A model generated the notes under the pieces. That model saw only the letters and a list, made by a program, of their open reading frames with translations, was not told where the DNA came from and made no database searches. A DNA stretch of 64,000 nt from Apostichopus japonicus (lineage: Eukaryota; Echinodermata; Holothuroidea; Aspidochirotida; Stichopodidae). Location of the stretch: positions 18,406,611 through 18,470,610 of the forward strand of contig NC_092576.1 of NCBI RefSeq assembly GCF_037975245.1, written 5' to 3'. How positions within the stretch are numbered: position 1 is the first letter of the stretch; each line of letters begins with the position of its first letter. The position numbers and the translations under genes were made by a program. Positions 453 to 28,857 of the stretch are shown piece after piece.

Positions 453-3400
453 ATGCTGCAAGGACAAACGATATTGTCATATTTCGTCAATTGGCGAAAC
501 AAAGACAGTCATTGGTTAGTCATCCAAATATTGTTGACCAAATTGCAGTTGAAGTTTCGGACTGTGAGTATGTATACCTTTCATTCTTCTAAGTACAAAT
601 CAGCCGTAAACAGTTTTGTTTACTTGATTCGGAGGCTAAGCAAACAGTATATCTACTTTTGTTGATATATTTAGTTTCATATTACAAAGCTTGAATATCC
701 TTACCACTGAAATAATATTTATTACTTTAGTTAATATCATCGGAGTTCTTTTCCGGTAATGGGTCTGTGGAAATGAATATCTATAATTTGTAATAACGTT
801 TCCTGTCATTTTTTTTTTAAACTAGTTCCTTACTACATTTATCAAGAGTATTTGGACGGAGGAAATTTAAGACATTTTATGTTGAGAAACTTTGAGCAAT
901 CCAATAAAGATCATATAGAGAACCAATCTACCTCAACTGCTACGATACCAACGGATGGCAAAAACTTACATTTGATACAGTTTGCTTTAGAAGTGGCGTG
1001 TGGAATGGCATATCTTGCTTACAATAATGTGAGTAAAAATAATACAAGACTCGCCCTCATAAATAAAGTCGTAAAGGGAGTTTGTTCTGCTCCCTGACTC
1101 AACTGGCGGACGCGTAATCACGGATCTTAAGAGCTTACGGGAAGTAGTCACCTGAGACTAGTAATTGAATATAACATCATTTGTTTAATGATATCTAAAC
1201 TGCGGTTTTCAGTTTTGACTGTCAACCGCACTTTTTCATACTCTTATTATTGGCTAGTGCGTGTTAAGCATCGAAACCTTTTTATTCAGATTGTTTTTAG
1301 ATCTATCGTTTTCGATAGCATTTACAGGAAATATATATTAAGGGAATTTCTCAATTGGTGTCGATTTATATACAACAATTGGCCTTTAATTTATGATTTC
1401 ATTGACCTAGATGTGGCTAGATGTTAAGCTTTTAGACGTCTTGTTGTTGTCATATTAAAATCATGAACATATAAACGTGCAGATCCGTCACGATTGCTGT
1501 TGACTCCATTTTTATTATTATAAACAATTGATACTATATCATTATTCTATTTCACCGAGTTTAATCTCCATTCAGTATCGTCACCCTGGTCTTTGTCTAA
1601 AGAAGGTTCTGTTAACAAACGTGATGACATGTAAGTTATATGACTTCTGGCCAGACGATTTATCCGGAGAAAGACTCCGGACAATCCTTGACAAGGTGAG
1701 ACAAACCATGAGAAATATGATATGTTAAAAAGTTCCTTCACGCTTAAACCATATGAAGCAAGTGCATTTCAGTAATGATCAATTGAATAAAAAAAAATGG
1801 AACACAGTGTTAAAAACAAATATGACAAAGTAGTATAATTTTCTTAAGAAGATTTGTAAAACGACATTAGCACTTGTTTTACTTGCAAATGTTGGGAACT
1901 CCTTTTTTTTACTGGGAAGTGCTGAATAATATGTAAAAAGCCTGTCTTTTGGTCATACGGCATAGAGATACTTCACGTTCGACAATATGTAGTTTAAATT
2001 GTATTCAAACTTGATCTGAATAATTAATCTTCGTCAGCTATATGTTCACACTGTGAGTTGCGCATGCTTTTCAAGTGAAACTTAATATGTGGTATTCTTC
2101 CAAAGGTTTCCTGAATTTAGAAAAATTGTAACAGTGTAGGTGGCCCTGTGTAGATTTCTTACCGATATCTTGATGAACAATTAATCTTTATTGTTTCAGC
2201 CGGATCCGCCTACTGCGTGGCTTCCAACTGAGACCATCTTTTTGCGGCAGTATTCTGGAGAATCTGATGTATGGTCTTATGCTGTCCTTCTTTGGGAATT
2301 ATTTTCTTTTGGTATGTCACATGTTTGTTATCCTACGAGTACATGTTTTATGATTCCTAGATAAGCTTGATTTCTTACAGTTCTTGTGAAACGAATGATG
2401 GATATTCTCAACAGATTAAAATCAGTATCAATAAATCAATCATATAGCAAAGACAATCAGTCATAAATCACAAGCATGCATATGTCTGCCAGGAATAAAG
2501 TCACATTTAAGCACGATTTAAGAGACAGTCAGAGGAACGTTTCAGTACGATAAATATCTAAACTGTTGATTGCAAACTTTTACTTTGAATTAGGTAGTAC
2601 TCCATACGCAGGTCTCAACGCAGACGAACTTGAACAAGAAATAAGGCATGGAAGAACACTACCACAACCAAATAATTGCCCAGGAGGAGTGTAAGTGAAA
2701 ATGTGTATTTAAAAGTTTCTTTTTAAGTATGATACATATGATGCTGTCTGCGAAAGATTAAGACATCCGGTGGAATGTATCGACTCATATAACATTGTCG
2801 GTAAACACTTGGATTATTACGTTGCTTTATAACAGTTCTATCTACTGTGTTTTTATGTTTGTAGTTATGGCATGATGCTATCTTCCTGGGATACTGTGGT
2901 TACAAACCGGCCGCCGTTTTCCCAATTACAGGAGAAAATTCAGACCATGCTAAATGCCTTGAGTCAGGTATTGCCATGTTTTATTTTTTTTTTTTAAATA
3001 AATGTTACGGTTCTAATTGTTTTGTTCTTATTATGAAGAGTACTGTTCTTTGGAAGAGTATGAAGAATATATAAATGAAACCAGTAACGATACCATATTG
3101 AGATTAAAGTTAATTAATAATATAACTATTCATCCTTGGTTATGATCTTGTTTTATATTAGTTGTTTCTAACCGAGCTAATAGTTCTAAATTCTGCTTTT
3201 ATAAAATTGTGTATACATCATAAGAAACATTAAGCTATTATGTCACTGATTTACCAGGAAGTCCAATAATGGTAACTCATAATCTCATTCCAACAAACGT
3301 TTCACTGCTACTGTTCACTCGATACTCATAGCTGGTACAGTTACTTCTGTTCATGTCCTGTAACACATGATACACGTGTTATGAACGCAAAGTAGTGTTT

Positions 3401-4441
3401 ATTATACAACACCTAATTATATTCCGGCCATTTGATAGTCAAACGCTCGTCGATTGCATGCAAAATCCGCTCTATTGCACTCTATGAAATAGAACCATGT
3501 GCTATACTTTTTTGATAGCACTTTTTCAATGGTAACAGAGCAGGGTTATCTGTCTGTTCAAAACAATCTGTTGCATGAGTGCGTTTTACATCCAATTATA
3601 TCCAAAATTTCGTCGAAAGATGTAATTTGTTCCATTCAACTCGGCTGCACCTCGTTGAATGGAACATTCCATCTTTCAACTCATGAAATATTTGCACTAT
3701 TGCACTCATAACCATTTATTATTTGTGTACTGACGCACGGATGTGGGACATGAACAGTAGTTGATATACTAACCATTTAGTTCGAGTTCATTAATACGCG
3801 ATTCTATACTCAAGTCGTATCTAGTCCTTCTATGCTATAAGTAGGCCTATGGATATACCCGGACATGGCCTTCCTTCGTTCTCGACATGCTGAATTGTCG
3901 TACTTAAAATACATGTGTGAACTGGAGTCAAGAGGTACCCTACCTACTTTACTTTATCTCGTAGGCATTCTCATCTTTAATGACTCCTCGTCTTGTCGTG
4001 CAGTGTTTTGTCTTACATGGGAACAAGCTACCAGCTTTGTAGTTGTTACAGTGCCACCTGTAGCACATGCTACCGGGTTACAAACACAAAGTAGAAATTA
4101 CTGTTAAACGGTTGTGGGACATGAACAGTGGTTGCTGTACCAGCTATGAGTATCGGCTGTATGGTCGTAATAGAAATATATAGAATATCCTTCTTAAACA
4201 CTGCTTAATTTCTTAAGGAAAAAATAGAAGGTCAAACCCTTCCAACTTTTGAAAACTCTTGGCAAATTGAATGTGCTATATATGTTAGGGCATACTATAA
4301 TTTAACCTTACTTTTTTATTATTTTTGTGTATGTTACGTCAGGTTATTTGTCCGTTAAAGGGAGAAGAAATGAGCAATGAACCAAAATACTTTCCCCTGG
4401 ACGGATGTGCCGAAGAAAATGACTACACGGAATCATGCTAG
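453..4441 (+). CDS. Receptor tyrosine-kinase-like pseudokinase, gene 1 (5' partial, seven exons)
   Basis: Seven exons join in frame: 453-563, 826-1028, 1576-1695, 2200-2311, 2594-2690, 2865-2967 and 4343-4441 (stop TAG). They encode about 280 residues from the alpha-C region to the C-terminus of a tyrosine-kinase-like domain. Landmarks are SHPNIV (alpha C to beta 4), YIYQEYLDGGNL (beta 5 and hinge), YRHPGLCLKKVLL at the catalytic loop, KLYDFW at the DFG position, SDVWSYAVLLWELFSFG (helix F) and NRPPFSQL (the RP.F block). The HRD aspartate is replaced (HPG), DFG reads DFW and APE reads PTE, so catalysis is unlikely. All introns are GT/AG. Exon phases match gene 2 exon for exon. The tail carries KYFPLDG and NDYTES. 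The open frame across seven exons argues against a dead pseudogene. The ligand and partners cannot be told from sequence. Confidence 0.82.
1576..1695 (+). CDS. Gene 1 exon with degenerate catalytic loop and DFG site
   Basis: This phase 0 to phase 0 exon of 40 codons is bounded by a TTCAG acceptor and a GTGAGA donor. It starts YRHPGLCLKKVLLT where active tyrosine kinases have HRDLAARN. The catalytic Asp is Gly and the catalytic-loop Asn is Lys. KLYDFW keeps the metal-binding Asp but has Trp for the DFG Gly. The same exon of gene 2 (26507-26626) has the same length and the same HPGL start. Confidence 0.85.
3320..4150. mobile_element. Non-autonomous element with inverted ends in the last intron of gene 1
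   Basis: Block 3320-3366 (contains GATACTCATAGCTGGTACAG) recurs inverted at 4104-4150 (CTGTACCAGCTATGAGTATC). A third partial copy lies at about 3738-3770 in the orientation of the right end (GTGGGACATGAACAGTAGTT). A 12-bp perfect inverted repeat, GTTCCATTCAAC with a 13-base loop, lies inside at 3629-3665. No transposase frame is present. The family is not recognised, and the outer borders and target duplication were not resolved. Confidence 0.5.
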
Positions 4442-4749
4442 AAAAGATGTGTTATACAGATGAAAATATGAACTAGTACTCAAAATAACTCAAAGCCATA
4501 CTAGTTTTCGGCAAAGTTATTGTGTGCAAAATATGGATCTGTATCTTAAGTTTATGATGCAAATATTAGTCTTAATGGTTCCTTCAAATTTCAGCCTTGA
4601 CGGAAATTACAAATATTTCGTCAATGTTGCGTTGAATTGTATGTTTTACACCTGATGATGTATCGCAACATTATCAATTGTTTAAAGAATTACTTACAAC
4701 TTAACATTTCAAACTCTAGTGACACTGTCATATAACGTTTGAAGAATGG

Positions 4750-4755
4750 AATAAA
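4750..4755 (+). terminator. Polyadenylation signal of gene 1
   Basis: AATAAA lies about 310 bases after the stop codon of gene 1 and is followed by AT-rich sequence. Its position fits a short 3' UTR. No transcript end can be seen directly. Confidence 0.5.
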
Positions 4756-6730: not shown

Positions 6731-6731
6731 T

Positions 6732-6750
6732 CACACACACACACACACAC
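6732..6750. repeat. (CA)n microsatellite
   Basis: An uninterrupted run of CA dinucleotides. Confidence 0.9.
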
Positions 6751-6817
6751 CAAGGAGCATGATACATGGCTTTCAGTCAATTACAAACTTTGCTTCTTTT
6801 TTTAGTATCTTTCAAAC

Positions 6818-6945
6818 CTGCGTAAAAGTAAGTTGGCCTGACGTTTCGATCCTAGCAGGATTTTCTTCAAAGGCTAAAAGACAAGTAACAGTAGCAGAAG
6901 GGACAAAACACCCACAAAATACAGACAGGTTAATGAGCATCTTTC
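6818..6945 (-). repeat. Dispersed repeat, copy 1 (inverted), with hairpin motif
   Basis: The reverse complement matches about 125 bases of 22150-22275, including the core GGATCGAAACGTCAGGCC and the preceding hairpin GATCC-loop-GGATC (one stem pair is broken here). Another copy of the family lies at 7770-7965 in the + orientation. Confidence 0.7.
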
Positions 6946-8885: not shown

Positions 8886-9219
8886 ATGTATACATACGAG
8901 ATAGTTTTCGTCGTTGCCTGCACCATGCTTCTAACCGTTTTACCAACTATGGCGTATAGCAGTGGCTGTTCCAAGTATGTTAAACTTAACTATGCTATCC
9001 AAATAAACTGTGCAGGAGAAAGATCATCGCGTGATTATTGGAGGTTTAATGGTACAAATTTATTTGCCAATGGAAACCTACTCAGTGACGTTATCAGCAA
9101 TGTTTCTGTTAACGAGAATTATACTCTTCTCATCTCGAGTTTTTCTTTGGATCACATTGGTTGGTATGAGTGTATTCGAAATGGTACATCAAGGGAAAAC
9201 CAAAGCATCTGTATAACAG
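8886..9219 (+). CDS. Gene 2 exon 1: signal peptide and Ig domain
   Basis: Residues 1-111. Residues 6-23 form a hydrophobic signal peptide. The Ig fold is shown by Cys42 (INCAG), Trp52 (YWRFNG) and the DHIGWYEC block ending at Cys96, the canonical D-x-G-x-Y-x-C. Cys28 and Cys109 could make a second disulphide. There are five N-glycosylation sequons (N55, N72, N78, N99, N105), which fits an exposed extracellular domain. The exon ends in phase 1 at a GTTTGT donor and is followed by a 10-kb intron. Confidence 0.82.
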
Positions 9220-12200
9220 GTTTGTGCAACTTATCTGATATAGCACGTTCTCCTTAATAACCTAAACCTTACTGTTCAACAGAATAATGGCCTAAGCATG
9301 TTCCATGTTGTAAACGAAGTCCACCACCCCCCCCCCTCGCCCCCAAGAAAAATAACAAGAAGTAATGTGATAGAATATTAGCATCATAAGCTAGTATATT
9401 TAGGTTATAACGTTATTTGTTATTCTTATATGCAAAGTATAGGCCAGAGTTGCTGAGTATTGTAGGGATATATCATTATCATGCTGTCGCTTTATTATCT
9501 TTGGACTCGATGAAACCGGATAATAAAAGTACAAAATGTTTTTTTCCTGGTAAAATATCATTGGTGAAAAGCAGTAGTACTTGACTATGTGGTTGGCGTC
9601 ACGGTGTCGTGCTGGCAGGATATAACATGTTAATATAGTGACTATAGCGACATTGGTAACATGGACGTTATATGGTAAGAAGGTGGCCCATAAACAATGT
9701 GGCAACGTTGCATGGTGACATAGTGACATTGCATACATAATGATACGGTGACATATTGACATGACGTTGTGTTATGTTTTTGTAAATATTATTCCAAATA
9801 AATTGCGGATATGATGATTCATTTTGGCATACAATTTGTCACTTTAGCTCGAATTAGTTACACAGTGCCAACTAGCACAATCGCGAACTTAAATGATTCA
9901 CAAAATAATTCGATGTACAAATGTGACTTATTCCATTCGTATGTGATGAACCTTTTGGGTTCTTACTATAGAGGTATTCGTTCCACGTCTCTCTATGTGA
10001 TGAACATCTATGTTTTTTTATAGAGGTATCAGATCCACATCTCTCTATGTTATGAACTTCTAGGGTTCTTATTATAGAGGTATTCTTTACACGGCTCTCT
10101 ATGTGATGAACCTCTAGGTTTCTTTTTATAGAGGTATCCGTTCCTCGTCTCTCTGATTTCCAGGATTACGTTCTTTATATCTGGACTTTTTTTATCATTA
10201 TGTGCCACAATTGATTGTTGGGTATGTTGAATTAAACATATCGGGAATGACTTACATTGTTGAGCCATACAACTGTGGATATTCATTCACAATAATATTT
10301 CACCAGTAGGGTTTGATGAAACCCGCACGTATTGTCTAACCAACCTTTGGTTGATACCAACTCGGACATCTATTATTTACAATAAGATTGTGATTAATTC
10401 CGACATTCCCAACATTTCTTCACCTAGAAATCCTCGATATATAATGTTAGTGAAATATGAAATGCAAACTGGATATGTTTTGAAACATTCAACTTTAACT
10501 TCAACATATGACATGAAACTTCACTGGTCTAGTTAATAAAGTAAACTTTTGGGAGTTTAGCATTGAATTATATTAAGTATTGGATTACATTACGAAACTT
10601 TTAGCAAAATCACCTCCAATCTGATTTTAGTGCTTATTTAAGTATATACTACTAACCGAATCTTCCCAGGTATAGCAAAAATCAATGAGATCTGAACTGG
10701 TGCCCTATACCTAGGATGGTCGTTACCGTTGGTATAACGGTTTAAGCCAATGTAGGATTTCACGCTATATGAGGCTGTACAACCTTTAATTACCGCAAAC
10801 GCACAACGCTAGTGTTAACATGCTTTCGTTGCAATTGTTATGTAGATCTTAATTTTTTTTTTTTTTAAAGCATGTATTTGACTTTCAATCACGAATGCAC
10901 TGTACCACGATTTTATTGACATTGTTCAAGAAATATTGGAAACCCTTCAATCTATATCATTAAATAGTATATGATAATGTCAGTGTAGTCTCTCTTTCAC
11001 TTTCTACCTATTATTAAGTTGGTAATCATTAAAAACCTGTACCCTGGTGATGCGATGATTAACACTTGACCAATTACAAATAATGCGACAAGGGTTTAAC
11101 AAGAACTTAAAGAGGTGGTTTCGTCCTATCAAGTTAATGTTAATACCAGCTAGAGCAAATACACGTTTTGTAACACTAAAGGTATGTTATTATGGGTACC
11201 AAACTGACAATTTACGTGGTTGACATTCACAATCACGTGAAATTGTGAAAGATTGCATCCACGATTTCACGATTCTTTGAACTCCTTTGAAAACCAAAAA
11301 AAAGCACAACTTAGATTGTGAGACAAAGACTAAATATACCTGCCATGTTCTTCATCACATTAAAGTATAACAAAGTAGTTGTTGCTTCATCATGTAAGCA
11401 TGAACACGTGTCATATACTGCCTTGGCTAACAGCTGTCAAACTATTATATAACAGCACACTATTTTCCACTTTGAGACACTGAAGTTTTAACTGGACCAA
11501 CAAATCAATAACATTACTTTCCTCAATATTCCAATAGTTCCATGTTTTGTTTTTATATTGTTATCAGCTTTACTCTAGTAGGTAATGGTGGATATGTATT
11601 AAATATAATGATCAAATTATTTTTGAGTGTAGGAAATGAAACAATACTGATATTTCATTAATGTTTAATTGACTTGACTCTGTAGCATTACAGTATACGA
11701 TTCAAGATTATACTTACAGCAATAAAATTTATTTTACAAAACAGGAACAGCATGGTAATTTTCCTAAGAATGAGAAAAACATTAAACGGTAAGCTTCTTT
11801 TAATACACATTTGTGTATAGGGAGCAGTTAATGTATGATTGATCTTGCGTTTTCTTAGTTTTCATTTTATCTCAGCCATTGATCTAATTGATACTAGTAA
11901 ACTTTACACACATGGCCCTTAAGAAGTGAATATAGAAAACATAAATTAACAAACGAAAAAGTTCCCGATCGTTTTGCCGAACTGCAGTAACCATAGTCTC
12001 TATTTATATTTATCACGGCAAAATATTCCGGTAAACTGCTATATTATTGATGGATTTAGTACATTCGGCAAACCTCATTTAAGTACAAAGTAAAGAACAA
12101 ACTATAAGAAGGTTGATATATTGTAGACAATTGTAAACAATAATATATTTCCCTGTTGTAAGTTCCTATGATCCTTTGATTTCGTATTTGAATAACGGTG

Positions 12201-15200: not shown

Positions 15201-18200
15201 ATAAATCTTCCCACAACCACCCCCCCCCCCTCCAACACTCTTGTGCATGCCACTGGTACGTGTACGATTGTTAGCGTACAAATGCCTACACTTTGCATAC
15301 ACACCTAGCTCTTCACCACTTCACGTGTATGGCTCTACATAACTTGGTACCAGGAAATCATCAAAGGGAGTGCATAGTTCCTTTTGCGTAGCATTTCGGT
15401 ATGCTCTGTATTCCTCTCGTGGTTAATGATAGGGGTATATACCGTTATGCATGTTTCATATAGGAGGGAGAGGAACCGATCCGTATTGACGGGAGGAGAT
15501 TGTCAATATGGAACGGAAATCCAGAACATATATTTAAGGCTATAGTTCTCTGAACAGTAAGTTACGTAAAGTCACGTCGCGCAATTGTCACGATGTGACA
15601 ATGATATATTGGAAATAAAGGCAGCGATTTTGCTCCATTCGTGGTTTGTTTTTTTTGTGTTTTTTTTCGCACTAATACAAAATATTCTTGAAAATATTCT
15701 AAGTAAAAATATACTTAATAATCTTAGGATTGGTTGCCTTCTTGGTGACGTCATAGGTTCTTTAAATCAGTCACTGACTCAGTCTACATGGTCTTTGTCA
15801 CGTTGCATTGCTGTTTATGCAAACATCGGTAAATCATTGACAGTCGCTTTGTGTTGTGGTCAGTGGCGTCACCAGACTTTTCAGTCTGGGGGGCACAGGG
15901 GGGCACCAGCATTTGATGGGGGCACTTAGGTGGATACGGATCGCCGTCCTAGGGGGGTCTAAGGGGAGGGGGTGACCCCCTCCCCTTTTGAAAATTTTCG
16001 CATACGGAGGATGGGCTAGATGCAAAATGGTGCCACATTTGATGCTAAATTCGATCTGAAGATATCTCCAGAAATTGCTATTTTTGAGGTAATGATCTTA
16101 ACAAAGAGAAGAATTTTGCAGAGGATATGAACCACATGCTGTCGATATTATGCCTAACCCTATCAATAGAACCTACATTTGTTGAATTAATGTGTGCATG
16201 ACCCCCGACTCCTTTCTTGTCCTTCTCGTTTTCGGCCATTATCTATTAAGATGTAACAGGTTCCAGCATCGTTATTGGCTCCTATCAGGGATCTCACCAT
16301 GCAATCCAAAGTTTGATCACACATCGAGTATGGCTCAGTACGCAGGTATGAACATTCGTCATATGTTCCTACAAGCATCTGACTTCAAATGACCTCTGCA
16401 CCCCCTACACAACAGGGTTAATATATGGGTGTAGGCGGTTTTACACTATCTAACGCAACGTAGTCGCAAAGAACCTGAAGTAAAGGGAGGGCCCGAGGAA
16501 TATGAACTTATAGCATGCTCCTCATGGTGAAACATAATTCACCTATTAGGTGAACTGAGTGTATTGTTAATAGTAGGAAAGACTAGCGTAGATTCTTATG
16601 ACCAACTAGACCGGTTTCTGCTCTCAAACTTTATAGGGGGAGCTTCATCAGTAGTAGCCTTTGAATATTTTATATTCGGCCTGGGCGTCTCGTTCTCAAA
16701 ATGCATTTATTTTCTGTGCACGAGTTTTTATGGACTCATAGTGCAACTATAAGAACATCTAAAAAAGCTTCGTGTAAACCTTGAGAGTTAGCTGATTCTT
16801 CGTTAGTAGGAAACCTTGAGTTAACAACAAGTAAATCTTTGAGATTTTGGGCCCTTTTGTAGGCTAGAATCGGTTCTTTTTGAAACAGTTTGGATAATTC
16901 CGCATGTTGCGAGATTAAGTGCCAATGTTTCAAAAGTGCTCTTTTTCAAATGCGTTTTGTAAACCTTTTTGCTTTTTTTGTTTTGTATGATGAAATGAAA
17001 TGGGGGTGTAGGGTTTTACACTATATAACGCAACGTGGTCGCCAAGAACCTGAAGTATTTTTAAAGGAGGGCCCGAGGAACATGAACTTATAGCATGCTC
17101 CTCATGGTGAAACATAATTGCACCTATTAGGTGAATTGAGTGTACTGTTAATAGTAGGAAAGACTAGCGTAGGTTCTTATGACCAACTAGTGTTGTGATG
17201 GCGCGGGTTACGACTTCGATACCCGACGGTCAAGGATAAACTTTTTCATTTTTTCGCAGCTCATTTGAAAAAATACGAATTACTGTGCTTCTCTGGCCCT
17301 ATGAAGAACCAACTCAGATGATGGGAGTTGAATATAACAAATTATATATATTTTTTTTACCAACACAAATCTCAGATGGGGGGTACTCGGGGGGCACTAG
17401 GTTTTCCAGGGGGGCACGTGCCCCCTGCCCCCCCCCCTTGGCGACGCCACTGGTTGTGGTAATTAATGTTAAGTATTACGATCTTTTTTCCATAGATTTC
17501 CGAAAAGAACTGACAACTTCTGCAATAACTGTGGTAAATACCGTAGGACGAACAGAGGGCGGCATTGAATCGGAACAAGAGATAGGCGCTACTGCCTTCT
17601 CCCGCAACGGTACGATGCATCATGAAATTCAGATTTGCTACTCAAATACGTTTACGCCTACTAATGTGTATATGTTTTTAAGGCATTCTACACTCTCTTA
17701 CTTTTACTCCATGACCTTTGTCAGTGTTTTCTTGTTTTGTCTGTACTTCATTACGGTCTTTACATGCATTACCTTAATCAGGTAAAGAAACAGCTTTCCA
17801 GTTAATGATATACATTAGTAACCACACTATTGGTTAATGTTGTAGGTTCAATTGTGATATGTGTGGAGTATATGTATGATTGAATGAAATGTGTCGAGAA
17901 ATGTGTATGATTGACTGATATGTGTAAAGAAATCTATATGATTGTGATTGTGTGGAGAAATGTGTATGATTGTGATATGTTTCGAAAAATGTGTATGGTT
18001 GTAATATGTGTGGAGAAATGTGTGTGATTGACTGATATGTGTGAAAACATGGGAATGATTGACTGATATGTGTAAAGAAATCTATATGATTGTAATTGTG
18101 TGGAGAAATGTGTATGATTGTGATATGTTTCGAAAAATGTGTAAGGTTGTAATATGTGTGGAAAAATTTGTTTGATTGACTGATATGTGTGGAGAAATGT

Positions 18201-21200
18201 GTATGTTTGACTGATATGTGTGAAGAAATGTGTATGATTGTAATATGTGTGGAGAAATGTGTGTGATTGACTGATATGTGTGGATAAATGTGTATGGTTG
18301 ACTGATATTTTTACAGAAATCAATATGATTGTGATTGTGTAGAGAAATGTGTATGATTGTGATATGTTACAAAAAATGTGTATGGTTGTAATATGTGTGG
18401 AAATTTTTTTTTTGATTGACTGATATGTGTGGAGAAATGTGTATGTTTGTGGCATGTGTGAATAAAGGTGTATGATTGACTGATATGTGTAGAGAAATGT
18501 GTATGATTGTAATATGTGTGGAGAAATGTGTATGATTGAATGAAATGTGAAGAGAAATGGTTACGATTGTAATATGTGTGGTGAATTGTGTATGTCTGAC
18601 TGATTGTTAGTTTGTTAACATTTAATTTTTGTCTTAGTGATGTAAAAATATAGTGATTAGAGTTAGTTTCTTATACTATGATGCGGCTTAATGACATTAG
18701 AAAAAAAACGATTTCATTGCATTAATGGGGAACCAGAAGAAAATAATGTTGGACCATTAAAGTCCATTTAGCTTATTCATACGATTTCATTGTTCAGAGT
18801 GAATCCCAAAATGTCATACTATCGATTATGACATATCAACTTGAAATACTGAAAGCACAATATTTCACGTTAGACTTTTTTTGGCGAAAAGGAATGCGTA
18901 TTAACAAATTTAATATAATGTTCTCATCACTTTCTCGTCAGTTAGACGTTCTTTTAGTTATAATTATGTGATTTTTTTGTAACAGTTTGACCTGTTGCCA
19001 TGAGAGCGCAGACTATGTCCTCGAGATTTTTTGTTATAATGAGGTGCATTTATACTTTAACAAGTGTTTCGTTAACGTCAACATAAATATAAGGATAGGT
19101 TCATGGTTGAGATGCATAAAAAAATGTTTCCGGTAAGTTGTTGTTGAATTTACACGCATATATTATCATTATGGTGAATTCGTAGACAGATCCGTAGAGA
19201 GTTTGTATATTTTCCTAAAAATCCATTTTGTATTTTTTTTTTCATTTGATTTACTTACAGACACAGAGACGGAATCAAGGGGCTTGTTTCTTGCTTCCAT
19301 CATTAGTGTAACCGCTGTGATTTTGGCAATACTGATCGTTGTATCAGGCTTTCTTTTCGCGAGGAAGCTATATAGTTCTGGTAAGCATCATTGCTAATAT
19401 ATACAACCCTGAATCCTCATTCTCAACCCTTCGAGTGGGTTAATGCTTAATGTTTAAGTCATTCAACAATATTTTGATGGTCACTTTAGATATTTGTATA
19501 AGAATTTATATGTAATAGGATATCAATTAAATCTACACTGACAAGGTCCTGAACATATTATTACTATTCGATTGCATATACGTCACAAAACTCTTGCTCT
19601 GTTATGAACTGATTAATATACAAAGTTATACCTACCCACTTTGAGCTGTATGATGCGTAAACAAGCTAAAACCTGTTGAATTTCATTTATGAGAGTTAGT
19701 CAGAGAGAGTGAGAGAAAGACAGCGCAAGAATGGAAGATGTTTTTGTAGGGAAGATGCGAAAGGGTAGAGCAGGCTCGCTAGAGTAGTATATGTTTATGT
19801 TTTGTTACCGGCTGGCCCATTACGTAAAGTTTATAAAGATGTTCATTATCTCCGTAAACATCCAACGTGATTTCTAAAATGTGTATTATCATCAGTTACA
19901 TAGGGATATATCAAGTCGATATTGCAACAAGAGTGTCACTTTCTCTTCAAGTAAACTTCGGCAAACTTTCCTTAAATCTATTTCCGAAACCTATTGTCAT
20001 TATCTTGGTTGTGATTAAGAGGGAAAAGATTTTCGTTTGTGTTAATATAATTTGAGGTATTGTTATCAGGAAATTGCGGTATGACCAAACATTGCGATGA
20101 GAATAATTCAAAGATTCGTTCTGGAATGAATAACAATACCGGCTATCACGAGGTTAGTTGATGTAGACCACTCCAAATGAATGTATGCTTGTTTGGTGAT
20201 AAATGTCGTCTGTCATTTACATATAGGGGCCGGATCAAGTCAACAGCAAACTATTGTGTAAGTACCTTTTTCCTTTGTATGTATTTGTAGGTATTTTATG
20301 GTATTTTATTTCATATAAATACCAATTAATATTAGATATGTCTAGCTGGTATCCCCAAGGCATCTCCCTAATATACACATTACAACATTCCAGTAGTCGA
20401 TATTGAGTGCTAAAGATAACAAATATTGGTTTTGAATCAATGTGCGTTTCATCTTAGTGATCATCTTTTCCATAGTTTCGAAGACGAAATATATATGGGT
20501 ACATTCGAAATGTAATGACTTCTCAATATTTTTTTTTTCGGTTTTTAGGCAACACATGTTTTACTCTGTTACTCTGTTGGCCCTTTGTAGAATGAAATAC
20601 CTCAGTCGTCCATTTCCTGAGAAGTGATTTGATAGACGTTTTGTTTTTTCTTGGAAAAGAAACGTACCCGAAGAATATTATAAACATGATATTTACTCAA
20701 TGACCCCCTGTACAGTTGCTGTATCTTCCTACCCCACCCCACCCCCCAACCCTCGCTAGATGTGACCCTACTGATAACATACAGCAGTTTGCTTGTGCAA
20801 TAACGGAAGGGCGTTACAGGCGAATCAAATCATCCGAAGTTTCTCAAACATCATTAAAAGATTGGTTTTGTTGGAAATATTTCAACTTGTAAACAAAACA
20901 ACATCTTACTACCATATTTGTAGTTACAATGAAGTAAATGACGCGGCAGTGGACCTCCTGGACCATCCTATATCGAGAAAACGAGAAGGTATCATATTCA
21001 GTTTGAAATTATTAAAACATATTACAACCTTATGTATATATAGAAAAAAATTGTAAATTGTCAAAGACCATTGACCATTATTAGATCATTGTAATCTGGA
21101 TGAGTTAAGAACAAGCGTAGTTTGAGATAAACTTGCTAAAACGTCTGCTTTTTAATGATAAAACAATCTTTTTTATATTTAATATTATGCAGCTTCGAAG

Positions 21201-24200
21201 GTGAAAAATGTGGAATCACCAAAGTAAGTAGTTGTACCTATCTCATTATCATTCATACGAGCTCGTGTGTGCTAAGAGATTGAAGTATTTGAGAGTTTAA
21301 TATTTCAATATTAGGTGGTAATATTAGTAATTTGACTAAAAGTAAGTCATTAATGATATATTTTACAATATTTAATCAGTAACATTTGTAAATGTATTAA
21401 ACTCAGCAAAATAATATACTTAAATCATGTTGAGAACGCATATCACCTGCAACTTTTTCATCTCAGTCAAAGGATCAAATTAATCGATAAGATAAGAATC
21501 ATTCGGATTTGCTACAATATATTGTTATCACAAAAGAATACCACTGTATTTATGTATGTTATACGCGTGCAACATTCATTTAGTAATTAAAACGTATATC
21601 AACGTTATGTGATATTGGGGGGAAAAGAACTTAAAAGATTCTTTAATCTGCAGAACAGAAACAAGGTTATAAAAACCTTTTTCTATGAGCGTCGATTTTT
21701 TCTTAATTGCTACCATAAACGCTTCTCTCTTTCAGCTTGAACGAAGCAACTTCTTTCACATACGAGGTTGCGCTACCAAGGAGCTCTTTCTTTTCAGACT
21801 GTGGCCCTGAGGAAAGTAAGATCTCGTTATGGGTTCATTTTCAGCGTTATACTTTACTGATGTAGTAAAGCATTGGTGAAAATTCGAATGAAAAATGAAG
21901 ATATATAAGGTTAAGCAACATATCTTGAAGGAGTTTTTCTATAAAATTGTTGATACTATCGTATCTTTCAAAGATGTACGAAATTATATCTAGTCTAAAT
22001 GAAGTCTACTGACGTTCGAAGAAAGAAACGAACAGGGGAATTTGGTTTCCCGTCCTCTTGCCCTGTTGGTTTCTTTCTTCTCTACATCCCTTGTCTACTA
22101 ATCCCCTTACATATATCTCTTTGTGTTCACCATGCTAATTAAACTGTCTGTATTCTGTGTGGTTTTGTCCCTTCTGTTACTGTTACTTGTCATTTAGTCT
22201 TTGAAGAAGATCCTGCTAGGATCGAAACGTCAGGCCAACCTACTTTTACACATTCTCCTACACAGGCTCTCTATTGGATAAGCAGTTTGCTAACAGTGTT
22301 ATTTTATTTTTATTATATGTAATACTAAAATAAACAGAATATAATGACTAAAGTCATATTTTTCAATGATAATGATGATGTGAAATAACCCTAACTACTA
22401 ATATAACACGAACACAGACTATTGGAAATAATGCAATGATATAATTCAGTTAAGTAGCCCTTATTATCATGTGGTTTCCGTATTAAGTTCTCAATTTTAA
22501 TTAAAAAATATTGGTATTTTATCAATTATGTTGCCGTTACACACAACACTTTTGCAAGCTGTGTCTGTTTAAGTCTTCTCTTCTTTACTTGTTTTTATCG
22601 CAGAACATTGTCTGGGACCACCAAAGTAAGTCGCAATCTGCTTTTATATAAATTATTGATACATTCATTTTAATTATTATTAAATAGATCGATTAATTTA
22701 TGTATAATTTCGTTTTGATCTGTTCTATCGTATTTTGTTAGGTTAGAGCTTCCCCAGCTTCCTTACGCCACCCATATGGTATGTGACAGTTTCGCGGCAA
22801 ACACAGAAGGCGGTAAGCTAATTGGAAATACAGAATAATGCCATTCATTGTTACCCTTAGGATTTATGTATTAATATCATTATTTAAAACACACCCACAA
22901 GCTTAACGGTCTGTATTGGTAATATAAAATAGGTAAGAATTGGGAGAGGAAGCACAGCATACTGCTTTCTGCAAAGTTGGTTTTTAATTTTTCCAATCTT
23001 TTGAAATTTGAGTTTGAGAAACACTTTGTAGATTTAGTGAATCTGACTATCTGACTATCCTTATTAGAACAAAAAGTGTTTAAAACCTGTTAGAGTAGTT
23101 ATGTAGTTCTGTCTGAAGAATTCAACATTATGGTATTATTTATCGTTGAAGGATGTAAAAGATGATCGTTAAAAGTTAAGATAACGTCTACAAAATTTCT
23201 TGGTGACATTTGTACAGGTAAACTATGAGATTTATTGTATAACTTTTATTTTTGCTTATCATTTTCTTACCCGTAAAGTATACTACTCGGATCTCAAGGA
23301 AACAAGCGGAGTTAGGCTGTTCAATTACAAGGAACTGTGTATTATAATGAGTTTGAAGGTTGGGAAAATTCATAACCGATGGATGGCGAGTATCACTGTA
23401 CCCAATGAACCAACCAAATGTGTATTTGTCTCTACAGTAACAGGTAAAGCAATAACCGATCTTCTGGGAGTTCTATTCAGATACTAAAATCAATACTATA
23501 TCAATCATCATTAATATCGAATGTAGTAAATTAGTGAGCATTGTGTTTATTTTGCTATTTCGATTATACCATACATATCAGTTTAAAGGAGAGATCAACA
23601 AGCTGAAACAAAAATTGTTACTTAAGTCCAACAAAACAAATGAAGACATAAGACAAAATGTTTGACCATGGAACAATAATACCATACATATCAGTTTAAA
23701 GCAGAGATCAGCATACTGCAACATAAATTGTTACTTTAGTCCAACAAAACAAACGAAGACATAAGATAAAAGGTTTGCACATGGAACAAAGCAAAGCATT
23801 AAAGTTATGCAACACAGATGTACTTATGTACTGCAGGGTTTAACGGTTAATAAGTTACTCATTGATCTCGTTAGCATAACAGTTTGATCAAGGTTTCCAC
23901 TTAATGATGTAATGTGTATGAATAAATCATAGATTGATCATTGTGGAGTAACGCTCAACCCAAAGCAAACACACCTTCACGATAGAAGGATCGACAAATC
24001 TCTCATAGTTGTGAATTACATATAAATCACTTGTATAAGAAACTATGCACCATGCAGTGAAGGTATTCTCGATTTCAATATGTCTTCCTCTCTCCACCTC
24101 TTTCTCCTTTTCTCTCTTTTTCTCTCCCTCTTTCTCAAACTAGATCAAATTCTGCGAACGAGGGAAATACAATGGGATGAATACGTGAAACGAGTTTTAG

Positions 24201-27200
24201 AGCTTCCAGAGATTGGAAGTATTGTAAACACTGAAGGAATCTGTATCGACGGAGGTAACGTACATTATCTTAAATATTGAAAAAAAAATGTGTCCCGTAA
24301 CATTCATTTTCGCCTTTACTATAGTCACAGAGTTTTCACACTCGCCATACTCGAAGACAATACTGCTGACGTCATCGTCACCCTCACGATCACCATGAAC
24401 ACCGCCACCATCAAACAACCGATCCCCATATCATCATCAAATTTATTATCACCAGCACTTTTACCATCATCATCATGGCAACAATAACAGTCGTGATAGT
24501 CACCATCACAACCATTTTTAACACGTTATCGTCGGCATCTACATGGAAATTGCCTAGGCCGTCACCATCACAAAGCATCGCATGGCATCACATTGCCGGT
24601 CACCATGACCACCATCGCCATACTCCAGGCCACCTACGCATTGCCATTGTTATAATAAGACATCACAATAAAAATTGCCATCACAATAAGAATTAACCTG
24701 TGCTTTTACATATTGCAGAACGTTCACCTCTATTACCGCACTTCATGAAACCAAATGACGGTCACCGGTCACCGTCATCACAACACCCTATCACTACATA
24801 TAACTATCACCGTCATCACAGCTCCCCATTACAACAGATGACAACCACCGTCCTCACAGCACTCCATCACAACAAAAGACAATCACCGGTTTCAGTCATC
24901 ATATGCGCTATATCAAATAAAACGATGGTCATCGGTTACTGTTAACACCAAAATTCAGGTTAATCTTCAATCTGCCACATCTTCATCAACGTCACTGTTA
25001 CCATTACCGTATAGTAAGGTTTAATTATCGTCAAATAAGAGAAAAGCTCTATATGCAACCATTTCTTCATCGGCCCTTAATTGTCTTATGAATATATCAC
25101 ACAATGCGATGCCATTCTGATTTTTTTTTTGTCAAATCGTAAAATATATTTTTAGCCATTGCTATAATTTACTGAATTTGAAGATTGAAAGACAGTTTTC
25201 TTGTCCTTCATATCTGTTCTGCATACTAGGTTATGCTAATTGAGAGACAAGTTTAGTTAACGTCTCTTCCATCGTAATAACTATAAAAATCACCATTACC
25301 ATCTCCTCTGCTGTCACAAATCTCTTCAATTGTGTGTTGAATACAACTCAATAGGTTTACTTTTTTGGCAGGCAACAAATACAAGTTTAAGTCACGTTCA
25401 TTTGTTACTAACTAACCAAAGACACTAACTAACTAAGACAAATATTATCTAGAAATTCAAAAATATTGTTAGGCTGGTTTAACAACTATTTACAACAAAA
25501 TCAACGACGGTATGAATGCTATGAAAATGTATGAGATACTTTTTATGAAAGTCATCCAAAATGGAAAGAAAAAGCAAAAACATGATCCATAGTGAACCTC
25601 AGCCCCTCTCAACATCAGCGCCTCTCAACCTCATTCCCTCTCAACCTTAGCCCTTTTCAACATCAGCCATTCTCAACATCAGCCACTATCAACCTCAACC
25701 ACTCTCAACCTCAGTCCCTCCCAACCTCAGCTCCTCTTAACCTCAGCCTCGCTAAACATCAGCGCCTACCAACTTGAGCCCCTCTCACACCTCATCCCTC
25801 TCAACCTCAGCCCCTGTCAACATCAGCCACTATTAACCTCAACCCCTTCTATCGAACATATTATAATCACGCTAATGACGAGAAGTGAAACATCTTCAAA
25901 AGGGAGTAAATAACGCATATGACCTTACTAGTATTAATGTCATCGGGTTAAGGTAAAAGTGAAAAGATACAACGATTGTTTGTATTGCACACGACATTCA
26001 TATTTAGCTTTAACATGTTGTAAGTATAATAACGTTTCAAGTTTACATCATCATGTCTCATTACGAACTCTGTCAATCATATCTGTCTTAAATAAACACA
26101 CCATTGTCCCTTTGTTTTTATCTTAACCAATCATCACAGCCAAACTTTACTTGATACAAGAGCATCTGACGTGTGTCACTTTCGAGAGTAATATTCGCTC
26201 CAATCAACAACAAGAAACTGGATCGGTCGGTCATGAATATTCATCAGCGGATGTCAAAAGATGGACAGTGGATATCTTAAAGGGATTGGAATTAATTCAC
26301 TCATATGGGGTAACTTACTAGTAATTTCAATTTTTATTTCAACATATGTTATCTATGCATTATAATATTATATGACTTCAATAAAAAATGTACTCTTTTA
26401 CCACATATTCATGTCAAGTTCTAAGTATACATTCTCTCAATTTTTCATTGTTTTCATTAAACCATTATACTCTAACCTCAGTAACTTTTAATATTATATT
26501 TCAAAGCTTCTTCATCCTGGATTGTCAAGCCGGAAGATTTTGTTCACCGATCAGAAGATCCCAAAGTTATATGACTTCTGTCTCGCTGAAGATGCATCCC
26601 ATAAAGTACTTCTCATGAAAGAGAAGGTAATACAGTTCATCATTGATTGAATAATTAATGAACCAATGCATAATTGGATGAATATTGCAACTAGTTATCT
26701 CCTAATTCTATTTTGTAACGAAGTAACATCATGAACATGTTGTACATATCTGGTACTTGATTCAAGATATGGATGTCTGCTTTACATATACAGTTTCCAC
26801 TTATTAGAATCACTATCGTGGTGTGCTTGACGAACTTTTATAATGACGTCACAAAAATGATTATGCAGACGTGTCACTTGAGGTTGCCACTGACCTATGA
26901 CGTTAAATACATAATGTTGAAACTGACGTCGATATTTATAACAGCCTCCCTTGTCGCATAATAAATGAAACCTTTAACTTGTGAGAGCGATCGTTACAAA
27001 GTGAAGTTTTCAATTTGTTTACAATTGTATATTAATATCCACGCGGAAGGGTACAAACATAAACATATGCATGTTCCATTCATCCAGATATCCGCTCGTG
27101 AATATGCATAACGAAATAAACCTGTTTGTGTATGATATATGCGAATTAAATACATTGAACCTAACAATGAATGCTAATTGTGATAACATGATGATCCTTT

Positions 27201-28857
27201 CTATACTAATATAGATGGTGTGTTCTCGCAACCAGTTAGCCCCTGAAGCGCTATCAAGGAATGAATATTCAACAGCGAGTGATGTCTGGTCAGTTGCTGT
27301 CATGATCTGGGAATTACTCACAGGTAACACTCTCTTATATCATTATTCTTCTTATTACTTTTTTTTGTCATCAAATTTATACCAGAAATTAAAATTGGTA
27401 CTGTATAAGGAAAACAAAGTCACAACTATATGTTTTTTATTTGTAAAAGGTTCTTTGCCGTTTCCATCTGATATCGGTGGTACTCTCAACAAATCTGAAC
27501 AGCGAAGAATTGATTGGCCTATCAAGCATAACGACATCAGGTAAGCATACCCATTAAAGTATTGTTACGTACGTTTGTTAGGACGTATAACGACATTAGG
27601 TAAGGACACACTTGTAACTATTGTACGCTTACACTGATTGCGTTGTGTGGCTTACTACGTATATAACTAAATGAGGTGAGGAAACACATGGTTGCACCTT
27701 ACATTTATTGTGTTTTGTGGTCTAGCAAGTATAACGGTAAGGAAACACATTACATTAGTTCACATTGCATATATTGTGTAGTGTGGTATACAAAGTATTA
27801 CGACATTAGGTAACAATACGCACAATTGTTGTACTTTCAATTTCTTGTTGTAATGAATTAACTATTAAGTATAATGGGCGTTGTGGTCAAGTGGTTAAGG
27901 CAGTGGACTTGTGGTCTAAGGAATGCAGGTTCGAGCCCTGGCCAGATCATTGCGCTGTGTCCTTGGGCAAGGCACTTTATCTCCATTGCCTCTAATCACC
28001 CAGGTGTATAAATGGGTACTTGTGAGGTGGCTTGTAAATATAGTTGCGTGCGCTTGTTTGTTTCTGTACCCTATGGGATGTCCCCCAGGTGACACGTGGC
28101 TGTCGTGCACTGTTGTGCCCCAGAAGAGATTGTTTGAATTGTGCACATTTTGGTGTGTAGGTGTGGCAAGTTACCAATGACTAGGGTTAATTGTAAAGCG
28201 CATAGAACTTGTGGATTATGCGCTATATGAATAACGGCGTAATAATATAATGATATAAGGAAAGGGTACACTATTGTTAATTATTTTCCATTATACACCC
28301 ATCGCACTGGCAACACCATAACGTCAGTCACTGATTCCATCTCATACTTTTTTAACAAGGAACGAAAGAGTTATGGATTGCTGGCAAGAAGAGTTTTCCC
28401 TGCGGCCGTCGATGAGACAGCTTCGGTTATCGTTTGAAGAGGTAAAAACCAATATTAGCCAACATTCCAATGTTTGTCATCAAACACAGAGCTCAGATAG
28501 TACGACGTTCTTATGTTTTGCTATATGGTTCCTTCTTTAGTTGATTTCGTATGGAAATTGAATCCAGTGATTTCTACATCTGATATTAGATTAACTTTTG
28601 ACACTAGAATAACCTTAATGGCCCTATACTGATAGCTTTAAACAAAATATGTTTTACAATATCTTAATAGTAGCATCTGCAAACGTTTGATTTAATATTT
28701 ATCTTATTTATCTCATTTTTTATTGCTAATTTTGCAGAATGTTAGTTCCACGAAAACGGGAAACAATTCTGGAGATCTGAATACATTTGATATGTATGTT
28801 CCGATGAAGGGAATTATCACCACTGATGACACTAATAAGAAGAGTAATAGTGTCTGA
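8886..28857 (+). CDS. Ig-domain receptor pseudokinase, gene 2 (complete, 17 exons)
   Basis: Proposed exons: 8886-9219, 19261-19380, 20070-20152, 20227-20255, 20924-20988, 21193-21223, 21736-21815, 22604-22625, 22742-22812, 23279-23443, 24144-24254, 26140-26309, 26507-26626, 27215-27323, 27450-27540, 28360-28441 and 28738-28857. They sum to 1803 nt and stay in frame, giving 600 residues. Order: signal peptide (about 1-24), one Ig domain (28-109), membrane helix (about 119-145), juxtamembrane region (146-285), kinase-like domain (about 290-560) and tail ending at 600. The beta 3 VAVK lysine position reads VFVS (Ser330), the catalytic loop is HPG (430-432) and DFG is DFC (450-452). LAPEAL, DVWS and the RPS block are kept. 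It is probably a plasma-membrane pseudokinase receptor. The least certain exon is 20227-20255, where phase forces a GTGTAA donor rather than the stronger GTAAGT two bases on. Confidence 0.8.
9220..9930. other. Start of gene 2 intron 1, low-complexity patches only
   Basis: Contains a C-rich run near 9330 and a loosely repeated TGACAT/GTGACATT patch near 9690-9770. No exon is recognised. Confidence 0.45.
9935..10165. repeat. Tandem repeat, unit about 57 bp, four copies
   Basis: The unit contains TCTCTATGTGATGAACCTCT, then GGGTTCTTATTATAGAGGTA and a CGTTCCACG block. It recurs four times with point changes. Confidence 0.8.
10166..12970. other. Gene 2 intron 1, nothing recognised
   Basis: AT-rich intron sequence. 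No open frame here has domain-like features. A short duplicated segment (GTGAAATC..ATGTTAATAAGTG) occurs near 12483-12555. Confidence 0.45.
12975..13262. repeat. Foldback (long inverted repeat) with small loop
   Basis: Arms of about 135 and 140 bases face each other across a loop near 13111-13119. For example GAACTGAGGATAT on the left pairs with ATATCCTCAGTTC on the right, GGATTTGTTG with CAACAAATCC, and the ACCACAGTAAAAACTGG and CCAGTATTTACTGTGGT blocks pair further out. The open frame at 12860-13120 lies across the left arm and is not a gene. This is likely a foldback MITE. Confidence 0.75.
13263..15850. other. Gene 2 intron 1, nothing recognised
   Basis: AT-rich intron with homopolymer runs. 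The small frames do not resemble known domains. Confidence 0.45.
16431..17190 (-). mobile_element. Nested insertion with 180-bp direct repeats and a Penelope-like fragment
   Basis: Direct repeats 16428-16609 and 17003-17190 are about 90 percent alike by eye; both contain GGCCCGAGGAA, TATAGCATGCTCCTCATGG and end GACCAACTAG. They flank about 390 unique bases holding a Penelope-type coding fragment on the minus strand. Copy B of the host element has about 185 unrelated bases at this site. Penelope-like elements are known for LTR-like direct repeats, so this may be a short internally deleted member. Confidence 0.55.
16736..16933 (-). pseudogene. Fragment of Penelope-like element reverse transcriptase, C-terminal side
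   Basis: The minus-strand frame reads KHWHLISQHAELSKLF, then ILAYKRAQNLKDLLVV. This resembles the conserved block (KHW..L, then P.lAyrR..NLrDlLV) that follows the reverse transcriptase domain of Penelope-like retroelements, ahead of the endonuclease. Neither the reverse transcriptase core nor the GIY-YIG endonuclease is present. The family assignment is from recognition only. Confidence 0.5.
17496..17609 (+). CDS. Candidate alternative stalk exon of gene 2
   Basis: A 114-base open stretch follows a strong acceptor (CTTTTTTCCATAG) and ends before a GT (AACG, then GTACGA). It would enter and leave in phase 1, like the junction between the Ig exon and the membrane exon, so it could be inserted without breaking the frame. 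It would add 38 residues rich in Thr, Ser and Glu (for example ELTTSAITVVNTVGRTEGG), plausible as an extracellular stalk. The donor is weak. It begins only 43 bases after the hAT element. Confidence 0.35.
17870..18605. repeat. Minisatellite, unit about 29 bp
   Basis: About 25 diverged units built on GTGTGGAGAAATGTGTATGA followed by TTGTAATAT or TTGACTGATAT. The two 3' halves of the unit alternate. The 173-residue reverse frame at 17934-18455 (TFLHTY/SQS repeats) is just its translation. Confidence 0.85.
18606..19260. other. Gene 2 intron 1, end
   Basis: AT-rich sequence ending in a long pyrimidine tract and TTACAG, the acceptor of the membrane exon. Confidence 0.5.
19261..19380 (+). CDS. Gene 2 exon 2: transmembrane segment
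   Basis: Residues 112-152. A short acidic stalk (DTETESRG) leads to about 26 hydrophobic residues (FLASIISVTAVILAILIVVS), followed by the positive stop-transfer ARK. The exon enters in phase 1, matching the end of the Ig exon, and leaves in phase 1 at GTAAGC. This gives a single-pass receptor with the Ig domain outside. Confidence 0.85.
20070..22812 (+). CDS. Gene 2 juxtamembrane micro-exon series
   Basis: Seven small exons of 83, 29 (or 31), 65, 31, 80, 22 and 71 bases encode residues 152-278 between the membrane and the kinase-like domain. Each has GT/AG borders and phases fit in series, except the uncertain 20227 exon. Tyrosines occur in TGYHE, FYNEV, FTYEVAL and LPYATHM. No fold is recognised and the region is probably disordered. 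Paired phases (for example 21193-21223 with 21736-21815) would allow exon skipping without a frame change. Confidence 0.6.
22035..22285 (+). repeat. Dispersed repeat, copy 3, with hairpin motif
   Basis: The most complete copy of the family also seen at 6818-6945 (inverted) and 7770-7965. It contains TTTGAAGAAGATCC, a 5-base loop, GGATCGAAACGTCAGG. The five-pair stem followed by GAAAC resembles a hammerhead ribozyme half-core but is imperfect. It lies in the intron between 21815 and 22604. Confidence 0.65.
23279..26309 (+). CDS. Gene 2 exons for the kinase-like N-lobe and hinge
   Basis: Exons 23279-23443, 24144-24254 and 26140-26309 (residues 279-427). The glycine loop is poor (LKVGKIHN has one glycine) and beta 3 reads KCVFVSTV, with Ser330 where the ATP-contacting lysine belongs. 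Exon 24144-24254 has the same length and phase as gene 1 exon 453-563. The hinge reads KLYLIQEHL, comparable to YYIYQEYL in gene 1. Residues just before the lobe read VYYSDL, a VxYxxL motif made at the junction 22812/23279. Confidence 0.8.
23567..23793. repeat. Tandem duplication, unit about 113 bp, two copies
   Basis: ACCATACATATCAGTTTAAA starts both copies, and TCCAACAAAACAAA followed by GAAGACATAAGA recurs in each. It lies in an intron of gene 2. Confidence 0.8.
24340..24960. repeat. CAT/CAC-rich low-complexity intron segment
   Basis: Loosely repeated ATCACCATCA-type triplets, with histidine, threonine and isoleucine-rich spurious frames in every phase. No exon is supported here. Confidence 0.6.
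25590..25850. repeat. Minisatellite, unit about 16-18 bp
   Basis: Repeats of CCTCTCAACCTCAGCC with variants (CTCTCAACATCAGCC). The frame at 25592-25777 is its translation. Confidence 0.8.
26507..28441 (+). CDS. Gene 2 exons for the kinase-like C-lobe
   Basis: Exons 26507-26626, 27215-27323, 27450-27540 and 28360-28441 (residues 428-561). The catalytic loop is LLHPGLSSRKILF instead of HRDLAARN and DFG is DFC. LAPEAL keeps the APE motif, DVWSVAVMIWELLTG is a normal helix F, and CWQEEFSLRPSM is the terminal tyrosine-kinase block. Structural residues are kept while catalytic ones are lost, as in a maintained pseudokinase. Confidence 0.82.
27518..27825 (+). repeat. Tandem copies of the exon 15 splice-donor segment
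   Basis: The real exon end (AAGCATAACGACATCAG, then GTAAGC at 27541) is followed by four diverged copies of the same exon-end plus donor: CGTATAACGACATTAG/GTAAGG (GT at 27600), GTATATAACTAAATGAG/GTGAGG (27676), CAAGTATAACG/GTAAGG (27737) and AAGTATTACGACATTAG/GTAACA (27810). Spacing is 59 to 76 bases. Reading past the true donor gives TAA at once, so the downstream donors would truncate the protein. Confidence 0.7.
27877..28255 (+). mobile_element. tRNA-derived SINE with conserved central domain
   Basis: The head has a box A-like GTGGTCAAGTGGTTAAGG and a box B-like GGTTCGAGCCC. The body contains GTGTCCTTGGGCAAGGCAC and TGTATAAATGGGTA, a core shared by several widespread metazoan (Deu/Meta-type) SINEs. 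The tail has AAGCGCATAGAACTTG and ATTATGCGCTATATGAAT. It lies in the last-but-two intron of gene 2, + strand. Confidence 0.75.
28738..28857 (+). CDS. Gene 2 last exon: tail with YVPM motif
   Basis: Residues 562-600 follow a TTTTGCAG acceptor and end with TGA at 28855-28857. The tail is polar and probably disordered. It holds DMYVPMKG (Tyr581), a Y-x-x-M motif of the kind bound by the SH2 domains of the PI3-kinase regulatory subunit. Gene 1 has KYFPLDG at the equivalent place. No other domain is seen. Confidence 0.8.
   Translation, partial: NVSSTKTGNNSGDLNTFDMYVPMKGIITTDDTNKKSNSV

Follow-up and report, generated by a model that had tools for sequence, protein, structure and literature searches.

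Receptors of the FGFR/KIT/PDGFR class carry three or five Ig domains. Other receptors combine a receptor architecture with a defective kinase. ErbB3 has a weakly active or dead kinase and tail tyrosines that serve as docking sites, including YxxM motifs; it lacks an Ig ectodomain, reads HRN rather than HPG, and retains an intact DFG motif. PTK7 is a single gene; it has seven Ig domains, and its motif changes are different ones. To our knowledge, a genome normally has one receptor pseudokinase gene or a few. A further group of described systems comprises the vertebrate paired immune receptors of the KIR, PIR, SIRP and Siglec types.

Expansions of receptor kinase genes have been described for Apostichopus japonicus. 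In the available part of its text, the first genome paper lists five expanded families, one of which is the tyrosine-protein kinase receptor (PMC5638244). The available part of the second reports 38 Fgfr genes, mostly in a clade of their own; these were for the most part repressed during aestivation and activated during regeneration (PMC6018497). Both expansions are restated in the available text of a 2026 preprint on another sea cucumber (PMC13228809). Pseudokinases are not mentioned in the available parts of these three sources. The two A. japonicus sets resemble the genes analyzed here in being expanded receptor kinase genes of this species, and they may overlap with them, but the same partial texts present them as receptors for FGF signalling or signal recognition and are silent on catalytic loss. 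No such receptor pseudokinase family is described in the available text of PMC8662651 and PMC13428168, and no title or opening of an abstract among those listed pointed to a pseudokinase or tandem receptor kinase family in sea cucumbers or invertebrates. A literature search on paired receptors together with gene conversion returned nothing.

The window, i.e., the whole analyzed stretch of 64,000 nt (G000:C16:18406611-18470610), lies in the A. japonicus genome (671.58 Mb, 35 contigs). It contains two neighboring genes, the exons of which are listed in Table 1. The model of gene 1 was built from the window and the 10 kb upstream of it (L009); the gene starts 3.2 kb upstream of the window, and its Ig exon lies at C16:18403365-18403701. 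Its ten exons join to a single frame of 524 residues with a terminal stop as the sole stop codon, and every intron has GT-AG borders. The frame encodes, in this order, a signal peptide, one Ig-like domain, a Ser/Thr-rich stalk, a membrane span, a kinase fold and a tail. In gene 2, exons one to four keep the frame (8886 to about 20152). Of the splice choices tried for 20924 to 28857, one alone gave an open chain. The juxtamembrane junction near 20227-20257 is off by one base, and therefore gene 2 is presented as two in-frame parts that are not joined end to end. Its intron of 8 kb (9219 to 17496) may hold more Ig exons. Inspection by eye also revealed repetitive elements in the introns of gene 2, namely an inverted repeat that may be a small transposon (12930-13270, first intron), a minisatellite of roughly 24 bp (TGTGGAGAAATGTGTATGATTG-like, 17830-18600) and a SINE-like element of tRNA origin that has letters resembling A and B boxes (27877-28240).

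Table 1. Exons of gene 1 and gene 2. Positions are those of the window, except for the L009 positions upstream of it.
Feature	Position	Strand	Remark
Gene 1, upstream exons	L009:6755-7091 (Ig), L009:8629-8850, L009:9795-9965		
Gene 1, exon of kinase part (alpha-C region), 111 nt	453..563	+	alpha-C Glu absent from the expected place (alignment by eye)
Gene 1, kinase exon, hinge to alpha-E	826..1028	+	
Gene 1, catalytic-loop exon, 120 nt	1576..1695	+	HPGLCLKKVLL...KLYDFWP
Gene 1, exon	2200..2311	+	WLPTETIF...SDVWSYAVLLWELFSFG
Gene 1, C-lobe exon of kinase part	2594..2690	+	
Gene 1, RP-block exon of kinase part	2865..2967	+	NRPPFSQL
Gene 1, tail exon, stop	4343..4441	+	EPKYFPLD...ENDY
Gene 2, signal peptide and Ig exon	8886..9219	+	8941-9225 has 91.6% identity to the gene 1 Ig exon
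Gene 2, stalk exon	17496..17609	+	
Gene 2, transmembrane exon	19261..19380	+	
Gene 2, juxtamembrane exon	20070..20152	+	next junction one base out
Gene 2, juxtamembrane exon	20924..20988	+	YNEVND
Gene 2, juxtamembrane exon	21193..21223	+	
Gene 2, juxtamembrane exon	21736..21815	+	FTYEVALP
Gene 2, short exon	22604..22625	+	
Gene 2, juxtamembrane exon	22742..22812	+	LPYATHMV
Gene 2, N-lobe exon	23279..23443	+	no glycine loop; Ser replaces beta-3 Lys (VFVS)
Gene 2, kinase exon, 111 nt	24144..24254	+	counterpart of 453-563
Gene 2, kinase exon, hinge to alpha-E	26140..26309	+	
Gene 2, catalytic-loop exon, 120 nt	26507..26626	+	HPGLSSRKILF...KLYDFCL
Gene 2, exon	27215..27323	+	LAPEALSRNEYSTASDVWSVAVMIWELLT
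Gene 2, C-lobe exon of kinase part	27450..27540	+	
Gene 2, RP-block exon of kinase part	28360..28441	+	LRPSMRQL
Gene 2, tail exon, stop	28738..28857	+	FDMYVPMK

The Pfam domain PK_Tyr_Ser-Thr (PF07714, cut-off 23.1) was detected in gene 1 with 153 bits (E 1.2e-44, window exons only) and in gene 2 with 98.5 bits (E 5.1e-28). Ig_3 scored 22.1 and 18.6 bits (E 2.2e-4 and 0.0028), which is under the curated cut-off of 30, and ten other frames of the window gave nothing above cut-off. Both genes likely encode Ig-type receptors, as judged from these profiles. Their catalytic-loop exons read YRHPGLCLKKVLL...KLYDFWP in gene 1 and LLHPGLSSRKILF...KLYDFCL in gene 2, so that HRDLAARN is replaced by HPGLCLKK and HPGLSSRK, and DFG by DFW and DFC, respectively. 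Gene 1 has VAK at beta-3, whereas gene 2 has VFVS and lacks GxGxxG. SDVWS and the RP block are present in both genes, and no tyrosine was seen in the activation segments of the translated exons. The exchange of HRDL for HPGL, the retention of DVWS and the RP block, and the loss of the beta-3 lysine and the glycine loop from gene 2 had already been noted in the initial annotation, and all were recovered. The same is true for the matching exons, which have AG/GT borders throughout, with a start in phase 1 for the 111-nt pair and phase 0 to 0 for the 120-nt pair. The classification as Ig-type receptor pseudokinases with maintained frames fits the sequences of both genes.

A search of solved structures returned a tandem EGFR construct as the first match for both genes, followed by FGFR1 for gene 1 and FGFR3/FGFR1 for gene 2; KIT or PDGFR were also listed. 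The pair thus shares with the FGFR/KIT/PDGFR class the kinase part that is closest among solved structures, Ig outside and one membrane span, but it has lost HRD, Asn and the DFG Gly, and its activation segment is devoid of Tyr. Membership in the FGFR family was rejected: the intact HRD, the DFG and the tyrosine pair of the activation loop are absent from both genes, and the frame of gene 1 contains one Ig exon in place of three Ig domains with an acid box. PTK7/CCK4 and other Ig-bearing receptor pseudokinases are similar in being Ig-bearing dead receptor kinases. However, the single Ig exon in the gene 1 frame does not agree with the seven Ig domains of PTK7, and matches to the present family were found at 180 places. 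With ErbB3 the pair would share a dead receptor kinase with tyrosine docking in the tail. The vertebrate paired immune receptors are alike in that the two genes are adjacent, with a near-identical Ig ectodomain and different cytoplasmic halves; this likeness rests on sequence, and the pair has a dead kinase instead of an ITIM tail or a charged membrane span. ITAM, ITIM or a charged span were also considered as the signalling device and discarded, as inspection by eye showed no charged residue in the membrane spans and no fit of the tail motifs to a full ITAM.

Comparison of the two genes did not yield uniform results for the outer and the inner halves. The kinase halves are identical at 69 of 297 aligned residues (23%), and the tails are different. 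At the DNA level, L009 and window 1-450 (gene 1 up to the kinase exons) were compared with window 4501-29500 (gene 2), and a single similarity of 285 bp with 91.6% identity was found at E 1e-5. In ungapped 50-bp steps, identity was 74-78% in the first hundred bases of the Ig exon and 90-98% in the remainder, dropped to 24% immediately past its donor site, and was 16-48% outside the exon, where the flanks could not be aligned. The high identity of the Ig exons between unalignable flanks points to gene conversion or exon transfer, and the simplest reading of the sequences would be a recent conversion or transfer of the Ig exon between two old neighbors. The next best match to this exon in the genome has merely 43% identity. 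For the mature Ig parts, a dS of 0.089 (4.5 synonymous changes) and 12.5 non-synonymous changes were calculated; the resulting dN/dS of 0.72 is based on about 17 changes and is not different from 1.

The initial annotation had proposed that the catalytic residue was lost before a tandem duplication. The loss is common to many other loci and is thus probably older than the pair, in line with the first part of the proposal. The simple, recent tandem duplication had to be abandoned: the kinase halves are too different, gene 2 joins a subfamily of its own, and the likeness at the DNA level in the stretches compared is confined to the Ig exon. A local array, for which more copies just upstream would have spoken, was not found either, as 50 kb upstream and 10 kb downstream contained no third copy at the thresholds used.

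Across the genome, matches to the catalytic-loop exon were found at 180 separate places, 87 on C12, 51 on C16 and the remainder on 13 other contigs. The queries were the kinase part of gene 1, a relative on C16, the catalytic-loop exon of gene 1 alone (E up to 1) and gene 2 (E up to 0.01), and 150 matches of the gene 1 exon were merged with 69 catalytic-exon matches picked from the gene 2 search. The 180 places are the best-scoring candidates, and members may be missing; 115 are known by match only, many of these are weak, and some may not belong to the family. The letters were read at 66 distinct loci, 65 of them among the 180 places. They derive from 78 family stretches, in which a gene is sometimes represented by two pieces; the catalytic exon was present in 67 and readable from its first residue in 66. 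Similarity to gene 1, the C16 relative or gene 2 was the basis for choosing these stretches, which therefore lean towards the motif.

At the position of the HRD Asp, the 66 loci have Gly (34), Ala (23), Val (5), Glu (2), Thr (1) or Leu (1), and Asp in no case. Close orthologues with an intact HRD/K pair had been named in the initial annotation as grounds for refutation; an intact HRD was absent from all 66 family loci read, and the idea that the catalytic loss is confined to the pair was discarded. The Mg-binding Asn is replaced by Lys in 65 loci and by Arg in one. None of the 66 has the DFG Gly; 65 retain the DFG Asp. By sequence, the loci read are therefore pseudokinases that have lost the HRD Asp and, with the DFG Asp retained, about half of the Mg site. 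Four loci do not start with HP (L089, L102, L104 and L133). Among the matches listed, 17 HxD exons carry the Asp, and none of them lies within the 180 places. No stop codon occurs inside the matched stretch in 146 of the 150 catalytic-exon matches, which were chosen by similarity. Some copies seem decayed, with a stop in L027 and broken frames in L095 and L133.

Gene 2 and all eight relatives picked from its own search read YDFCL, and over 24 residues the mean identity of gene 2 was 72% to these eight versus 50% to 57 others. Gene 1 reads DFWP, as do 25 of the 57 members that are not of the gene 2 kind (gene 1 included); its averages over the same short stretch differ little, with 60% to its own kind and 57% to the gene 2 kind. 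In a tree, 49 HP-type rows formed one group against five HxD-type kinases with a support of 99/99, calculated from 70 columns only. Of the 16 loci of the comparison set, five passed the filter; two of these resemble Ser/Thr kinases, and one (L005) has no DFG. Gene 2 has a very long branch. The tree is weak evidence that the HP-type members share one origin, and the common motif loss may aid the grouping.

The kinase halves of genes 1 and 2 are too diverged for an estimate of selection, and therefore dN/dS was determined for kinase exons of other paralogue pairs. Each gene was used once, and 21 pairs were selected for the lowest dN, a choice that pulls the ratio down; the pairs may overlap in the tree. 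For the 15 close pairs with a dS under 1, the pooled dN/dS was 0.36 (crude binomial p 1.8e-12). The values varied from 0.01 to 1.45 where dS was finite. The strongest pair, L024/L029, differs by 13 synonymous changes and one non-synonymous change, and three of the 21 pairs had values of 0.88 or more, i.e., L099/L101 (four changes), L088/L091 and L095/L097 (L095 being broken). Purifying selection on the kinase exons is thus indicated between close paralogues by these substitution counts.

The Ig exon was also compared with the genome-wide distribution of the family. Of 73 Ig matches, 12, including the two of the pair itself, are followed within 20 kb on the same strand by a family catalytic exon. 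With flipped strands the number was 1, and in 200 local shifts the mean was 1.65 and the maximum 5. Hence, the combination of Ig and dead kinase is not peculiar to the pair. For the other 61 matches, the lists compiled contain no family kinase exon in the 20 kb that follow. On C16, many weak single-Ig exon matches were observed at about 4.5-6.7, 31-33 and 36-41 Mb, most of them with no family kinase exon nearby in these lists; they perhaps represent further Ig receptors with other tails.

Tails were sought in genes 1 and 2 and in 11 further loci, four of these with added stretches. A tyrosine motif was recognized in 7 of the 13 genes and none in the other 6; the tail exons were picked by eye for their tyrosines, and this choice inflates the pattern. 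The motifs are EPKYFPLD in gene 1, FDMYVPMK in gene 2, STDYFSIS in L024 and L029, DTSYIVLE in L033, STSYFVLE in L134 and EPNYFSLD in L137. With the exception of gene 2, the recognized tails have a second tyrosine near the C-terminus (6 of 7). The L134 tail belongs to the gene with the stop in its catalytic exon (L027). The best support for the pattern is the resemblance of the gene 1 tail EPKYFPLDGCAEENDY to the L137 tail EPNYFSLDKDSSDDDY. YVPM of gene 2 presumably fits the p85/PI3K class, and YFPL of gene 1 would fit another SH2-docking class. YxxL/I/M motifs double as endocytic AP-2 signals.

A second group of receptor kinases was observed in the genome. These read HGDLAARN, have Asp, Asn and DFG, and are found on C13, C17, C18, C19, C21 and C22 (L105-L108, L122-L124), with dense matches on C17, C18, C19 and C21. 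This set amounts to a second large expansion, of receptor kinases that may be active.

We hypothesize, with a probability of about one half, that the family is a lineage-specific expansion of non-catalytic Ig receptors that act as docking platforms, and that genes 1 and 2 are paired receptors. The Ig domain would bind a ligand, upon which a catalytically competent partner kinase would phosphorylate the tail tyrosines (YxxL/I/M), and these would then dock SH2 proteins, with the kinase fold serving as an allosteric or scaffold domain. Candidates for the partner are the HGDLAARN receptor kinases, which sit on other chromosomes. Nucleotide binding by the fold is possible, as gene 1 has the beta-3 Lys (VAK) and both genes have the DFG Asp. 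The Ig exon is nearly identical in the two neighbors and the inner halves are old and different, and thus genes 1 and 2 probably respond to the same ligand with two outputs, as in paired receptors. In a more specific and rather doubtful version, well over a hundred dead-kinase Ig receptors would form an innate recognition repertoire, with their kinase domains locked by a conserved Lys-Asp pair that replaces Mg. Gene conversion between neighbors would swap only the sensing exon, so that one ligand would be read out by different docking tails.

It is unlikely, yet worth considering, that the receptors are decoys or dominant-negative forms, which sequester ligand or silence intact kinases by pairing, with the dead kinase and the tail as mere remnants. 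The loss of the catalytic Asp from every locus read and the presence of HGDLAARN receptor kinases with Asp, Asn and DFG in the same genome would be in agreement with such a role, but purifying selection on the kinase exons and the recurring tail tyrosines suggest that the inner half matters. An altered but active kinase, in which the new Lys and the retained DFG Asp (65 of 66 loci each) form another phosphotransfer or nucleotide-handling site, is much less probable. The beta-3 Lys of gene 1 would suit this explanation, whereas no catalytic base is found at the HRD place in the 66 copies (two have Glu there), and gene 2 lacks both the beta-3 Lys and the glycine loop. Hardly any weight is given to the view that the copies are functionless, decaying gene fragments. 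The stop or broken frames in L027, L095 and L133 and the three pairs with high dN/dS are what decay would produce, but gene 1 is open across ten exons, nearly all of the similarity-selected catalytic-exon matches are free of stops, and the pooled dN/dS as well as the L024/L029 pair speak for constraint.

With 180 places and no catalytic Asp in the 66 loci read, the family would rank among the largest receptor pseudokinase families in animals, and its members are natural replicates for asking what role a dead kinase fold has. If the Fgfr expansion that has been tied to gut regeneration includes the present genes, its effect cannot depend on catalysis of the FGF type. Genes 1 and 2, with their similarity over the length of one exon, are a clean example of the sharing of an ectodomain between unlike signalling halves outside vertebrates.

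Two minor observations concern mobile elements. The region 37700-42420 of the window is richer in GC (about 0.45) and has a reverse-transcriptase-like YLDDW near 40855; it resembles a decayed retroelement by eye, and the frames tried in it gave no Pfam match. On C4, C9, C14, C19 and C20, dispersed kinase-like exons (e.g., L109) with equal or near-equal scores were observed, several of them with one TAA, which look as if they had been copied by a mobile element.
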